From IMG/VR virus record IMGVR_UViG_3300040751_002953, positions 1 through 24,976 of that record: 24,976 nucleotides of DNA, one strand, 5' to 3'. The position numbers and the translations under genes were made by a program. Source of the stretch: a virus. How positions within the stretch are numbered: the stretch's first letter is position 1; the number at the start of each line of letters is the position of its first letter. The notes beneath the pieces were generated by a model that worked only from the letters and a program-made list of their open reading frames with translations, was not told the DNA's origin and ran no database searches. Of the stretch, positions 2,870 to 21,376 are shown one piece after another.

Positions 2870-3031
2870 ATGGGACACCTGGAAGAAGAAGGATTCACAT
2901 ACTGGCAACATTTACAACGTGCATGGACGTTGAGCTTTGTGTGTTTCGTCCATGGATTATTCCCTTTTATATGGAAACACAAAGCAACGGAGATAATTAA
3001 CAGCAAATGGCCTATTCAGAAAAGGTACTAG
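2870..3031 (+). CDS. DUF6356-like mini-protein
   Basis: This 53-residue ORF reads MGHLEEEGFTYWQHLQRAW and then a hydrophobic LSFVCFVHGLFPFIW segment before a basic tail. The layout (HLxEEGxTYWxH, then a hydrophobic stretch with HGLFPF) matches the small family I know as DUF6356, sometimes annotated as capsule biosynthesis protein, which is found in bacteria and marine phages. The hydrophobic stretch could be a membrane-associated helix. Its last 25 bases overlap iscU in another frame. There is no Shine-Dalgarno sequence, and an ATAAATA element lies just upstream. Function is unknown. Confidence 0.7.
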   Translation: MGHLEEEGFTYWQHLQRAWTLSFVCFVHGLFPFIWKHKATEIINSKWPIQKRY

Positions 3032-3387
3032 ATCACTATGAGAATCCCAGGAATGTTGGAAAAATGGACGAAACTCAACCCGATGTTGGCACCGGGATGG
3101 TTGGAGCGCCAGCTTGCGGAGACGTCATGCGACTTCAAATACAAGTCGGAGATGACGGAATTATTAAGGACGCTAAATTCAAAACTTACGGATGCGGCAG
3201 TGCAATTGCTTCTAGCTCACTACTCACAGAATGGGTTCGAGGAAAAACCCTTGACCAAGCAGGAGAAATCCGCAATACACAAATTGCTGAAGAACTGGCA
3301 TTACCGCCAGTAAAAATACATTGCAGTGTGCTAGCAGAAGACGCAATTAAGGCCGCAATCAATGACTACAAGCGTAAGCACTCATGA
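3007..3387 (+). CDS. iscU: Iron-sulfur cluster assembly scaffold protein IscU
   Basis: IscU is the scaffold on which cysteine desulfurase and iron build a [2Fe-2S] cluster before transfer to carriers. All ligands are at the E. coli positions: C37 with D39 in ACGD, C63 in YGCGSA, and H105-C106 in IHCS. The LPPVK motif at 99-103, recognised by the chaperone HscA, is intact, so the protein should be able to engage the host HscA/HscB system. It is 126 aa, close to the 128 aa of E. coli IscU. A possible ribosome site CGGAGA lies 13 bases upstream. The gene overlaps the A-type carrier gene by ATGA, which suggests coupled translation. No cysteine desulfurase gene is present in the window, so sulfur would have to come from the host. 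Confidence 0.95.
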
Positions 3388-3704
3388 TCACAGTTGTACC
3401 AAAAGCCGCACACTGGGTAAAAAGCCAGTTGGAAAGCCGTGGCAGAGGCTTGGGTATTCGCCTGGGTGTGAAAACTGCTGGCTGTTCAGGATTCAAGTAT
3501 GTGTTGGAATTTGTGGACACACCAGAGGAATCAGATCATGTGTTTGAGCAACACGGTGTAAACTTCTATGTGGATCCAAAAAGTCTGTTAGCACTGGACG
3601 GCATGGAAGTGCAGTACAAAATCGAAGGCATTAACGAAGGCCTGGACTTCGTTAACCCAAATGTCACAGGTTCCTGTGGCTGTGGCGAAAGTTTCGCTGT
3701 ATAA
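3384..3704 (+). CDS. A-type Fe-S cluster carrier (IscA/ErpA/SufA family)
   Basis: This 106-residue protein has the A-type carrier layout, with [12 protein letters not shown] containing C34 and the C-terminal GSCGCGESF containing C98 and C100. These are the three conserved cysteines that bind iron or an Fe-S cluster. A-type carriers take clusters from IscU-like scaffolds and pass them to target enzymes. It is translationally coupled to iscU through an ATGA overlap. IscA, ErpA and SufA cannot be separated reliably by eye, so no symbol is given. The gene ends just upstream of a strong promoter. Confidence 0.93.
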
Positions 3705-5698: not shown

Positions 5699-6172
5699 AT
5701 GACAAGCAAACAATTACGTATCACTTCTGATCTTTTAAACTCACCACTATATAAAATGAGCGTCGGCTTTGACAGTCTTTTCAATGACTTCTTTGCAGCC
5801 AATCCTGCGATTGCTAACACTGGCGGATATCCTCCGTACAATGTTGCACGTATCACTGACGCTGACGAAAATGTTTCCTATGAAATCACATTCGCATGTG
5901 CTGGTTTCTCAGAGGATGACATCGAAGTCACAGTTGAAAACAATCAACTGATCGTGAAGGGTAACAGTGGTGTACTTGCTGAAGAAGCAGGAACCACAGT
6001 GGACTTCATCCACAAGGGCATTGCAGAGCGCAACTTTGAGCGCAAATTTAAACTTGCTGACAATGTTGTAGTCAGCGATGCAACCCTGAAAGATGGCATC
6101 CTCAAGGTGAAGTTTAATCAGGTTATTCCTGAAGAGCTGAAGCCAAAGCGTATTGCTATCAACACAAAGTAA
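5699..6172 (+). CDS. Small heat-shock protein, Hsp20/IbpA family
   Basis: This ATP-independent holdase keeps unfolding proteins soluble. The 157-residue protein has a short N-terminal arm, GGYPPYNV at the entry of the alpha-crystallin domain, AGFSEDDIEV, the conserved GIAERNFERKFKLAD strand region, ATLKDGILKV, and a C-terminal IxI motif (IAI, 152-154) used for oligomer assembly. The layout is IbpA-like. A strong ribosome site AAGGAG (5687-5692) lies 6 bases from the ATG. Hsp20 genes are common in marine T4-like phages (established). An intrinsic-terminator-like hairpin follows directly, so the gene may be expressed at a different level from clpS downstream. Confidence 0.95.
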   Translation: MTSKQLRITSDLLNSPLYKMSVGFDSLFNDFFAANPAIANTGGYPPYNVARITDADENVSYEITFACAGFSEDDIEVTVENNQLIVKGNSGVLAEEAGTTVDFIHKGIAERNFERKFKLADNVVVSDATLKDGILKVKFNQVIPEELKPKRIAINTK

Positions 6173-6180
6173 AAAACCCT

Positions 6181-6199
6181 GGGGGCTTCGGCCCCCTTT
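6181..6199 (+). terminator. Intrinsic terminator-like hairpin after hsp20
   Basis: GGGGGC (6181-6186), loop TTCG and GCCCCC (6191-6196) form a perfect 6-base G+C stem with a stable tetraloop, followed by only three T residues and preceded by an A run. The short T tract suggests partial termination. The clpS ribosome site follows immediately. Confidence 0.75.
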
Positions 6200-6209
6200 C
6201 GAGGACAAC

Positions 6210-6506
6210 ATGCCACAGACACAGACAAAAGCAAAAACTCAGGTTCAATTAAAGTATCCTAATCGTTATCGTGTAATTATTTTCAACGACGATACTACTC
6301 CCATGGAGTTCGTTATTCAAATATTGATTGAAATATTTAACAAAGATATTGAATCAGCAACAGAATTAACCATGGAAGTTCATACAAAAGGAAAAGCCAC
6401 TGCTGGAATTTACACAGCAGAAATTGCACATGAAAAAGTAGCAGAGTCACTGAATTGTGTTCTATTGCACGGTTACCAATTGAAATTGTCCGCAGAACCC
6501 ATTTAA
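6210..6506 (+). CDS. clpS: ATP-dependent Clp protease adaptor ClpS
   Basis: ClpS delivers N-degron proteins (Leu, Phe, Trp or Tyr at the N-terminus) to ClpAP in bacteria. From ATG 6210 the protein is 98 aa; longer in-frame readings run back through the terminator and hsp20, so they are rejected. After a disordered Gln/Lys/Thr tail, the core shows YRVIIFNDDTTPMEFV with the N-degron-binding N26, D27, D28 and M32, then LTMEVHTKGKATAGIYTAEIA with H58. These correspond to N34, D35, D36, M40 and H66 of E. coli ClpS. GAGGA serves as the ribosome site directly after the terminator. No ClpA-like unfoldase is seen in the window, so its partner is either host ClpA or viral ClpX. Confidence 0.93.
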   Translation: MPQTQTKAKTQVQLKYPNRYRVIIFNDDTTPMEFVIQILIEIFNKDIESATELTMEVHTKGKATAGIYTAEIAHEKVAESLNCVLLHGYQLKLSAEPI

Positions 6507-17809: not shown

Positions 17810-18238
17810 ATGATAGACGGAGCTAAAACAAAGGATGTGGTAGCATCAGGTATCAATCATGCTGAAAAAGCATTATTGCTTTTCATTGTGTTTGGCACTA
17901 TCTGGGCTGCTGGCATGGATATTATAAAAATGTTCACCAGTCAGGGACAAATGGCATTAGCAGATTTATTCCTGTTGTTCATTTATGCAGAAATACTGGG
18001 CATGGTGGGTGCCTTTTACAAAGACCATCGTATCCCTGTAACACTGCCACTGATCATTGCAATGACTGCGCTAACCAGAATGATTGTGCTACAAACCAAG
18101 GGCACAGATGCTGTTAACATAATCTACGAAAGCCTGGGTATTTTTATACTGGCAATCAGTGCATACGTGATGAGCATGAAAGACATGATCAGCCTCAAAA
18201 AGATTTCACTCAGGAAGGAAGATGACAACAATAATTGA
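17810..18238 (+). CDS. PsiE-family membrane protein
   Basis: This 142-residue membrane protein has four hydrophobic spans at about 21-41, 52-70, 76-95 and 104-124. The pattern FLLFIYAEILGMV, then RIPVTLPLIIAMTALTRMIVL matches the PsiE (phosphate-starvation-inducible E) family. PsiE function is not established. The N-terminus is cytosolic and charged, and the C-terminus basic then acidic. GGAG lies upstream; the start follows the guaC stop directly. It overlaps nadE by 17 bases. Confidence 0.8.
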   Translation: MIDGAKTKDVVASGINHAEKALLLFIVFGTIWAAGMDIIKMFTSQGQMALADLFLLFIYAEILGMVGAFYKDHRIPVTLPLIIAMTALTRMIVLQTKGTDAVNIIYESLGIFILAISAYVMSMKDMISLKKISLRKEDDNNN

Positions 18239-19500: not shown

Positions 19501-19552
19501 TAGGGATATTACTAAACTCATCAGGGAAGATATTTAATAGAGGATGTCAATT

Positions 19553-19825
19553 ATGGACATAAACACGTTATTAATAGCTGGGGTCGTTGCGGTTGTTGCA
19601 ATAGTAGGATTCCGTGTAATTCAAGACAGAGTACGTAAAGTTAAATTTAGCAACATGCCTGAATTAAAAGCAGATCCTGAAGCAATAAAACGGTTTCAGA
19701 GCGAAGTAATTGAAGCATATGGTAAATTACCAGAAACACCTGAAGAAGTTATTGAAGCATTTCATGCATTGGGATGGAAGTTAGATATTGATATTGATAA
19801 ACTACTATCAGATATCAAAAAATAG
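19553..19825 (+). CDS. Small single-span membrane protein
   Basis: This 90-residue protein (from ATG 19553) has an N-terminal hydrophobic segment (about 4-22, LLIAGVVAVVAIVGF), then a basic stop-transfer region and a helical soluble domain with PETPEEVIEAFHALGW. AGAGGA at 19539-19543 is well placed for 19553, and too close for the in-frame ATG at 19544. No family is recognised. The gene ends just before the G+C-rich non-coding segment. Confidence 0.72.
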   Translation: MDINTLLIAGVVAVVAIVGFRVIQDRVRKVKFSNMPELKADPEAIKRFQSEVIEAYGKLPETPEEVIEAFHALGWKLDIDIDKLLSDIKK

Positions 19826-19854
19826 CTTTTTCGTGCCCTAGAATAAACATTTAG

Positions 19855-19861
19855 ATAAATA
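19855..19861 (+). promoter_or_regulatory. ATAAATA late-promoter-like element upstream of structured RNA
   Basis: ATAAATA precedes the structured segment. With T4 late geometry transcription would start near 19867, exactly at the first base of the first long hairpin. This coincidence supports it modestly. Confidence 0.4.
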
Positions 19862-19990
19862 CAAGCGGTGAGGGTAATACCCTTCACCCTCACCTATGCT
19901 TGTAATGCAGGCTGCCCTTACCGGGGCGGTGAGTCGCTGGAATCCAGGACTTACAGTACAAGCGAGCGGTGCCGTGAGGACCGCGCAACG
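19861..19990 (+). ncRNA. Structured G+C-rich non-coding RNA or 5' leader (candidate)
   Basis: This stretch, within the 198-base gap between two genes, is clearly richer in G+C than its surroundings and folds extensively. Helices seen: GGTGAGGGT (19867-19875) with ACCCTCACC (19886-19894), 9 perfect pairs; GCTGCCC (19911-19917) with GGGCGGT (19924-19930); GTGAGTC-g-CTGG (19929-19940) with CCAGGACTTAC (19944-19954), 11 pairs around an AAT loop; GCGGT (19966-19970) with ACCGC (19980-19984). GCTTGTA (19898-19904) can pair with ACAAGC at 19861 or with TACAAGC at 19957-19963, giving alternative folds. It matches no RNA family I know. It may be a free RNA or the regulated leader of the gene at 20024. 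Confidence 0.6.
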
Positions 19991-20023
19991 AAGGCTAATT
20001 AAATTAGATTCGGAGAAAATCAA

Positions 20024-20320
20024 ATGAAAAAGAAAATAGCAATGATATTTGCTGTGTTGTTGTGGGCTGAATTTGCCTACGCAACTGATGTAATGCCCAG
20101 AGTCAGACTGGCAAAACACGAAGTAATTACCACCTCAAATAATTTAGAACATGTTACTGTAACTGCACCACGTATCAGTGATTTGGATCTGGATAATTAT
20201 ATGGGTTTGAGAGCCGCACTGAGTAATGTTATACTGTATCACAAATACGATGTTGTAACTGATACCTGGAAATATACAGGAACAGATACAAACGATTTTG
20301 AATACCCTACTGCAAAGTGA
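20024..20320 (+). CDS. Small secreted protein with signal peptide
   Basis: This 98-residue protein begins with a classic Sec signal peptide (MKKKIAMIFAVLLWAEFAYA, cleavage after residue 20). The mature 78 residues contain a strand-rich part (HVTVTAPRI) and a Tyr-rich end. There is no lipobox cysteine and no cysteine at all in the mature part. CGGAG precedes the ATG, and the gene lies directly downstream of the structured G+C-rich segment and upstream of a terminator. It may therefore be a stand-alone transcription unit. No family is recognised. Confidence 0.8.
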   Translation: MKKKIAMIFAVLLWAEFAYATDVMPRVRLAKHEVITTSNNLEHVTVTAPRISDLDLDNYMGLRAALSNVILYHKYDVVTDTWKYTGTDTNDFEYPTAK

Positions 20321-20326
20321 ACAATT

Positions 20327-20358
20327 AAAGCCTGCTTTTTAGTGGGCTTTTCTTTCTT
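20327..20358 (+). terminator. Intrinsic terminator
   Basis: AAAGCCTGC (20327-20335) pairs with GTGGGCTTT (20342-20350) over 9 positions including two G-U pairs, with loop TTTTTA, followed by a T-rich tail (TCTTTCTT). This is a typical rho-independent terminator for the secreted-protein gene. Confidence 0.85.
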
Positions 20359-20376: not shown

Positions 20377-20757
20377 ATGTATGCAACTCAATTAAAAAAT
20401 ATAACAACCAAGCATGACTTCCTGGATTGGTGTATAGACATTGACGAGAGTTCTGCGTTTAAGCGTAGAATTAATTCCACAGAATATCGTGTAAGTCAGT
20501 GTGTTTACGGAACTTGTCTGCTTGCAGATTTTAAACATCATAAATTTAATTTATGTTATTACACAGGAAATTATATTTTTTCCAGCTTATGCCATATATT
20601 ATGTGCCTATATGCAGGATAAAACTGCTGATGAAATACAAAATATCAATCTGGAAAACTTTAAAGATATACTGAATTTTTACACAGTGGAAAACAAAATA
20701 GCTTTTCAGCGTATATTGAATCACACAAAGATACTTGCAAGAAAACTCACAATGTAG
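20377..20757 (+). CDS. SufE-like Fe-S/sulfur-acceptor protein (divergent)
   Basis: SufE accepts sulfur from a cysteine desulfurase (SufS) and stimulates it. The 126-residue protein resembles the SufE domain: DFLDWCIDID, then EYRVSQCVYGTCLLA, which matches the NRVxGCxSxVWL active-site pattern with C42 as the candidate persulfide cysteine, then YIFSSLCHILCAYMQDKTADEI, matching the xLIVRGLLALLxxxxxGxTPxEI helix. The C-terminal helix (IAFQRILNHTKIL) fits too. Canonical loop residues are not all kept, so function is uncertain. It could supply sulfur to the viral IscU/A-type pair through the host desulfurase. No Shine-Dalgarno sequence is visible. Confidence 0.6.
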   Translation: MYATQLKNITTKHDFLDWCIDIDESSAFKRRINSTEYRVSQCVYGTCLLADFKHHKFNLCYYTGNYIFSSLCHILCAYMQDKTADEIQNINLENFKDILNFYTVENKIAFQRILNHTKILARKLTM

Positions 20758-20791: not shown

Positions 20792-21376
20792 ATGAACTTT
20801 GTACCATATGTAATTGAAAAAACCAGCCAGGGCGAGCGCAGTTATGATATCTACAGCCGCTTGCTCAAAGAACGCATCATCTTTTTAAACGGGGAAGTAC
20901 ACGATGCTGTGAGCAATTCAATTTGTGCACAGATGCTTTTCCTGGAAGCGGAAGATCCTGATGCAGATATTTACTTCTACATCAACTCACCCGGAGGTGT
21001 TGTGACGTCAGGCATGGCAATGTATGACACCATGCAGTATATCCAGCCAGACGTCAGTACCATTGTGATGGGTCAGGCCTGTAGCATGGGCAGTTTGCTA
21101 GCACAAGCAGGTGCTCCAGGCAAGCGCAAAATGCTACCAAATGCCAGACACATGATTCACCAGCCAAGTGGTGGCGCCGGAGGACAAGCAACTGACATCC
21201 AAATTCAAGCAGAAGAAATTCTCAAAATGAAACGTAACCTCACGCAGATCTATGTGGATCACAACAGTGTGGGTAAAACATATGACGAGTTCCATGATGC
21301 CATGGAACGTGACAACTTTATGAGTGCACAAGAGGCACTGGAATTTGGTTTGGTTGATGAAATCATAAACAAGTAA
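20792..21376 (+). CDS. clpP: ATP-dependent Clp protease proteolytic subunit ClpP
   Basis: ClpP is the serine-protease chamber partnered by ClpX or ClpA. The 194-residue protein covers the mature enzyme without an obvious long propeptide. The catalytic triad is visible: S98 in [11 protein letters not shown]123 in [15 protein letters not shown] and a probable D174 in ERDNFMSA. The oxyanion-loop [16 protein letters not shown] and the handle-helix region (about 130-160) are intact. C97 replaces the usual alanine next to the active serine. Intact core residues and the IGF loop in viral ClpX suggest they could work together or assemble mixed complexes with host subunits (inference). It has its own promoter at 20735. 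Confidence 0.96.

Follow-up and report, generated by a model that had tools for sequence, protein, structure and literature searches.

The gap upstream of a short open reading frame (ORF) in a 24,976 b virus record, analysed over its whole length (hereafter the window), encodes a member of an undescribed RNA family whose structure is real. With moderate confidence, we read the element as a conserved cis-acting leader at the 5′ end of a late phage mRNA, from a previously undescribed RNA family, that would control translation by exchanging one strand, S. The leader probably determines when, or in what amount, a small protein that is secreted or sits in the membrane is made. The two pairings of S, with a strand T next to the Shine–Dalgarno sequence and with the loop L1 of the 5′-terminal hairpin, were shown to be both conserved and mutually exclusive.

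Fold and predicted transcript start in the window

The leader lies in a 198 b gap (19826–20023) between the ORFs at 19544–19825 and 20024–20320. Folding of the G+C-rich block at 19855–19990 yielded −59.6 kcal/mol (z −4.8), and none of 200 shuffles was equally good. The helices of 9, 7, 11 and 5 bp named in the original prediction were all present in this fold (P1, GCTTGTA/TACAAGC, P4 and P5; Table 1), and the direct repeat TACAAGCG was found at both 19860 and 19957. The block that had been delimited does fold, but the conserved part is longer, reaching to about 20015 with a terminal hairpin (PT) and the Shine–Dalgarno sequence. No Rfam 15 covariance model reached its gathering cut-off in the window or in seven loci with relatives, and no tRNA cloverleaf or tmRNA was detected in the window with ARAGORN. 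These identities were consequently dropped, and the earlier description as an unassigned structured RNA stands, given a fold beyond that of shuffles and the lack of Rfam, tRNA and tmRNA matches.

Table 1. Positions of the predicted promoter, leader parts and downstream features in the window
Feature	Position	Strand	Basis
T4-type late promoter GATAAATA; ATAAATA 19855–19861	19854..19861	+	sequence
P1, 5′-terminal hairpin GGTGAGGGT/ACCCTCACC	19867..19894	+	fold; hairpin at equivalent place in every relative
P1 stem, 9 bp	19867–19875/19886–19894
L1, P1 loop AATACCCTTC	19876–19885
P2 closing helix, 7 bp, GCTTGTA 19898–19904/TACAAGC 19957–19963	19898..19963	+	fold; coevolution in 14 members
P3, enclosed by P2	19911–19918/19923–19930
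P4, enclosed by P2	19931–19940/19944–19952
P4, 11 bp, GTGAGTC.CTGG/CCAG.GACTTAC	within 19929–19954
P5 hairpin, bulged G19971, GNRA loop GTGA 19974–19977	19966..19984	+	covariation; model R1 match
5 bp of P5	19966–19970/19980–19984
S, switching strand CGAAGG	19989..19994	+	coevolution with T and L1
S–T pairing	CGAA 19989–19992/TTCG 20009–20012
S–L1 pairing	GAAGG 19990–19994/CCTTC 19881–19885
PT terminal hairpin: CGAA/TTCG, then CTAAT 19995–19999/ATTAG 20003–20007	19989..20012	+	covariation, model R1
Shine–Dalgarno CGGAG, adjoins PT 3′ end	20011..20015	+	sequence; equally abutting in relatives
ORF, 98 aa, signal-peptide-like N-terminus, behind leader	20024..20320	+
Terminator-like hairpin 3′ of ORF	20327..20350	+

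P1 begins where T4 late transcripts would start, 4–6 nt past ATAAATA. By T4 late-promoter geometry, we take 19867, the base of P1, to be the start site in the window, which agrees with the earlier proposal that this element (19855–19861) would start the RNA at the first hairpin. The window shares with the family an ATAAATA a few nt 5′ of the 5′-terminal hairpin: the motif preceded P1 by 4–6 nt in nearly all relatives (GTAAATA in L025), and a hairpin began at this distance in every one. The promoter is predicted to be of the T4 late type, as GATAAATA resembles the −10 element TATAAATA and a gp55-like late sigma factor (similar to T4 gp55; E 3.5e-7 and 4e-6) is encoded by the two largest related records, outside the window fragment.

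Approximately 6 bp 5′ of the leader's ATAAATA, a site of 16 bp was observed at L020:9076, L094:2234, L015:6950, L013:9121, L033:4775, L035:5382, L041:4782, L025:4743 and L095:6869; it reads TTAACACATCAGTTAA or, reverse-complemented, TTAACTGATGTGTTAA, with small variants. Each of these loci held this one copy and no other, and the site was absent from the window. TTAACACATCAGTTAA/TTAACTGATGTGTTAA looks like a putative protein-binding site dedicated to the leader promoter.

Relatives and covariation

No related loci were obtained when the two window ORFs flanking the leader were used for the search, and NadE and ClpP as queries yielded 87 related phage loci. Two of these, L036 and L038, carried TTAGATTCGGAGAA in front of a short ORF, with a homologue of ORF 19159 on one side and ClpP on the other, the same place as in the window. 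A shared architecture was seen when the sequence past ATAAATA was compared across the remaining loci; further members came from two pattern scans, and L150, L149 and L025 were found later. Approximately 20 distinct versions were present in uncultured T4-like phage contigs, all at the same genome place, before the SufE-like and ClpP genes, with one strong model match per phage record (whole records up to 340 kb).

The leaders are approximately 145–215 nt long and share one layout: ATAAATA, P1, P2 with inner helices, a bulged P5, and PT adjoining the Shine–Dalgarno sequence, followed by the ATG of a short ORF. One base of P5 is bulged and its loop is usually of the GNRA type; PT reads GC(UAA)..(UUA)G, and S and T lengthen it downward. 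In type A, a covarying helix P3, AAAGUUnAGGAACUUU and an inner hairpin lie within the P2 domain; this domain is smaller in type B and has its own version in the window (P3, P4). Conserved inner motifs are a UNNGUAU loop, AAAGUUnAGGAACUUU and the bulged GNRA hairpin. Three loci (L112, L114 and L127) had a shortened P2 interior between types A and B. In L020 and L023, S was complementary to L1 (GAGAGU/ACUCUC) and the full PT hairpin was missing, which suggests that S–L1 can be kept alone.

The alignment of P5 and PT comprised 16 sequences, with the window and L036 left out. Paired cells made up 96.9%, two-sided changes occurred in 12 of the 16 pairs, and the covariation was 0.721, compared with 0.234 ± 0.028 after shuffling and at most 0.127 with slid partners. 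All 7 pairs of P5 covaried in relatives, and RNAalifold recovered the same helices unaided. For ten full type-A leaders the covariation was 0.442 versus 0.195, with coevolution of the inner helix P3 (p 4e-5); the outer helix P3a was paired in most type-A members, its coevolution being not significant (p 0.15). P2 coevolved with p 1e-5 (permutation, 14 members). The compensating substitutions proposed earlier as a check were thus found in P5 and PT, in P2, in the pairings of S and in the full type-A alignment. A covariance model built on the 16 P5 and PT sequences (R1) matched the window at 19963–20016 with 35.1 bits (E 9e-10), the next best place in the window scoring 12.9 bits. Since the window had been left out of the model, this match is a test on a sequence outside the training set.

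A chance G+C-rich structure or a coding sequence is already refuted by the covariation, and we assign this reading practically no probability. The window alone holds a 43-aa ORF (19896–20027), whose conservation as protein had been named as evidence against an RNA; the ORFs within the leader were unconserved among relatives, and the candidate leader-encoded peptide was rejected. Nothing in favour of chance or coding remained after the comparison, with the covarying P5 and PT, the recovery of the window by an independent model and the coevolving strands all standing against it.

Window DNA gave only short matches to isolate phages, the best among those listed covering the signal-peptide start; L035 DNA gave one 23-nt match, and the small protein of a relative gave none (tblastn). 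A patterned scan of bacterial genomes returned 41 matches, with no convincing member among those screened; L193 reached 18 bits and was rejected, as it had none of the remaining architecture. The leader RNA was not described in the literature searched.

Two partners for strand S

Cross-pairing permutations, run on 13 and 14 members in which S or L1 differs, returned p 3e-5 (S × T) and p 6e-5 (S × L1), values from which shared ancestry is not removed. When the set was cut to six members, each from a different S hexamer class, p for L1 × S was still 0.005. The control pairings were null (L1 × T, p 0.59; L1 × Shine–Dalgarno, p 0.93), and pairing of L1 with T or with the Shine–Dalgarno sequence was rejected on this basis. 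Examples of matched L1/S changes are UUC/GAA, UCC/GGA, CGC/GCG, CUC/GAG and GUC/GAC, and L025, found later with the model, fits as well (L1 GCUAACC, S GGUUGC, T AACC). The P1 loop of the window is complementary to S over 5 bp (CCTTC/GAAGG, −5.2 kcal/mol).

The original prediction had also proposed alternative pairings. Two exclusive conserved pairings do exist, but the conserved exchange is that of L1 versus T for 19989–19994 and not the one envisaged, in which GCTTGTA would pair with either copy of TACAAGCG. The copy at 19860 shares bases with the promoter, and its seven bases that matter (19860–19866) end just before the expected start at 19867, so that GCTTGTA has the second partner only in the predicted transcript; relatives have an equivalent of the second copy only (P2). 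The other proposed alternative, AGGGT-AAT-ACCCT inside P1, had no counterpart in relatives.

In the mechanism we propose, P1 would form once the RNA leaves the polymerase and would shield the 5′ end. Capture of S by L1 would leave the region before the Shine–Dalgarno sequence open and translation on, whereas pairing of S with T would form a hairpin stacked on the Shine–Dalgarno sequence and reduce translation. The P2 domain and P5 may set the balance, possibly via binding of a protein or ligand or by folding time alone, and the leader would thereby set the timing or level of a late protein that is small and either membrane-bound or secreted. In the computed fold, the 6 nt 5′ of the Shine–Dalgarno sequence went from an openness of 0.15 to 0.68 when S was captured, and the Shine–Dalgarno sequence itself from 0.61 to 0.63. 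Because the latter hardly shifts, direct masking would be weak, and which way the switch works is guesswork. Exchange of S as a means of translation control is the mechanism we favour, with S–T as the lower-expression state, a direction we infer from the modelled openness. Points against the preferred explanation are the different downstream gene in the window, the L1–S pairing of only 5 bp there, and L020 and L023 with their incomplete PT.

Downstream gene, alternatives and known leaders

In most relatives (L033, L035, L038, L013 and others), the leader was followed by a 47–63 aa one-transmembrane (TM) protein with CxDGxxC and then the TM segment. This motif is usual rather than universal: it was missing from the protein downstream in L009 and from the 98-aa ORF of the window, which has a signal-peptide-like start instead. 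Neither the 98-aa ORF nor the relatives' ORFs belonged to a Pfam or PHROG family (above cut-off for the former). As the 98-aa protein of the window replaces the one-TM CxDGxxC protein, the leader is kept where the gene is changed. No terminator was found between leader and ORF; one was found 3′ of the ORF, and hairpins similar to that at 20327–20350 were visible past the small ORF in L036 and L038. Elsewhere, the window encoded a PsiE (phosphate-starvation-inducible) family protein (17810–18238; Pfam E 2e-19) adjoining NadE, and the fragment was dense in host-like genes (290–1558, 6153–6506, 20792–21376, 3007–3704 and 20377–20757), including ClpX, ClpP and, on a weak Pfam match, a SufE-like protein. 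Inspection by eye also pointed to a ClpS-like protein and to Fe-S scaffold proteins of the IscU/A type.

The original prediction had left the choice between a free phage small RNA and control of the secreted-protein gene. A discrete or processed noncoding RNA that acts by itself, as a scaffold, sponge or host-targeting RNA, with the ORF being incidental, would account for a conserved leader in front of a short, variable protein that is replaced in the window, and for the elaborate multi-helix architecture in single copy per genome. We nevertheless regard it as unlikely, since the leader has no terminator of its own before the next gene, the covarying PT always adjoins the Shine–Dalgarno sequence and then the ATG, and the protein of most relatives is of the recognizable CxDGxxC one-TM family. 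Control of the downstream gene is probable from the model of exclusive pairings beside the Shine–Dalgarno sequence and the lack of a terminator before the ORF. Late phage mRNAs are often stabilized by a 5′ hairpin, and P1 starts a few nt at most from where transcription is expected to begin; the leader could accordingly be constitutive, its hairpin blocking decay and its pseudoknot keeping the start region open for translation, with no switching in vivo. This reading, which we hold to be equally improbable, does not account for S coevolving with both T and L1.

The leader might also be a metabolite or ion riboswitch, a special case of the preferred explanation in which the P2 domain would be the aptamer and L1–S versus T–S the expression platform. 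The two exclusive conserved pairings and the inner motifs (UNNGUAU loop, AAAGUUnAGGAACUUU, bulged GNRA hairpin) point this way. However, the P2 interior, expected to be the most conserved part, is the most variable (it differs among type A, type B and the window), the downstream gene has no known metabolic role and no Rfam class applies, and we rate this case as somewhat less probable still than the noncoding or constitutive RNA. The leader resembles translation-controlling riboswitches with anti-anti-Shine–Dalgarno exchange in that one strand is common to two exclusive helices near the Shine–Dalgarno sequence, but it lacks a conserved aptamer core or known ligand, and PT abuts the Shine–Dalgarno sequence rather than burying it.

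In T4 gene 32 mRNA, a 5′ pseudoknot is the translational operator for gp32. The leader shares with it a pseudoknot in a T4-type phage mRNA leader, 5′ of the Shine–Dalgarno sequence, and likely translation control; the pseudoknot here, L1–S, is supported by coevolution. Unlike gene 32, the leader has P1–P5 and PT, an unrelated short gene, one strand exchanged between two partners and no known binder. Structured leaders of marine phages include manA, wcaG and PhotoRC-II (PMC2864571), all in Rfam and none matched by the leader. The manA and wcaG motifs of marine T4-like phages are likewise structured 5′ leaders, seen chiefly in marine metagenomes and in T4-like cyanophages (PMC2864571), whereas the present leader has no Rfam match, another architecture and gene context, and no cyanophage isolate. 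The Downstream-peptide motif (RF01704; cyanobacteria and marine samples) also precedes short ORFs but gave no match in the Rfam scan of the window and relatives. In a survey of pelagimyophages, no riboswitches were found and late promoters could not be predicted (PMC7029224).

More tentatively, the family may be a new sensing leader class that only uncultured T4-like phages have. The P1 loop and the strand before the Shine–Dalgarno sequence would compete for S and so time, by folding or through binding of a phage or host factor, a small late protein that is membrane-bound or secreted and perhaps lysis-related. Structured leaders of phage late genes are little charted, and the leader extends the RNA families of large uncultured phages by one. 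With a defined two-way pairing exchange by the ribosome-binding site, at a fixed place, RNA-level timing of late genes becomes testable with a short reporter.
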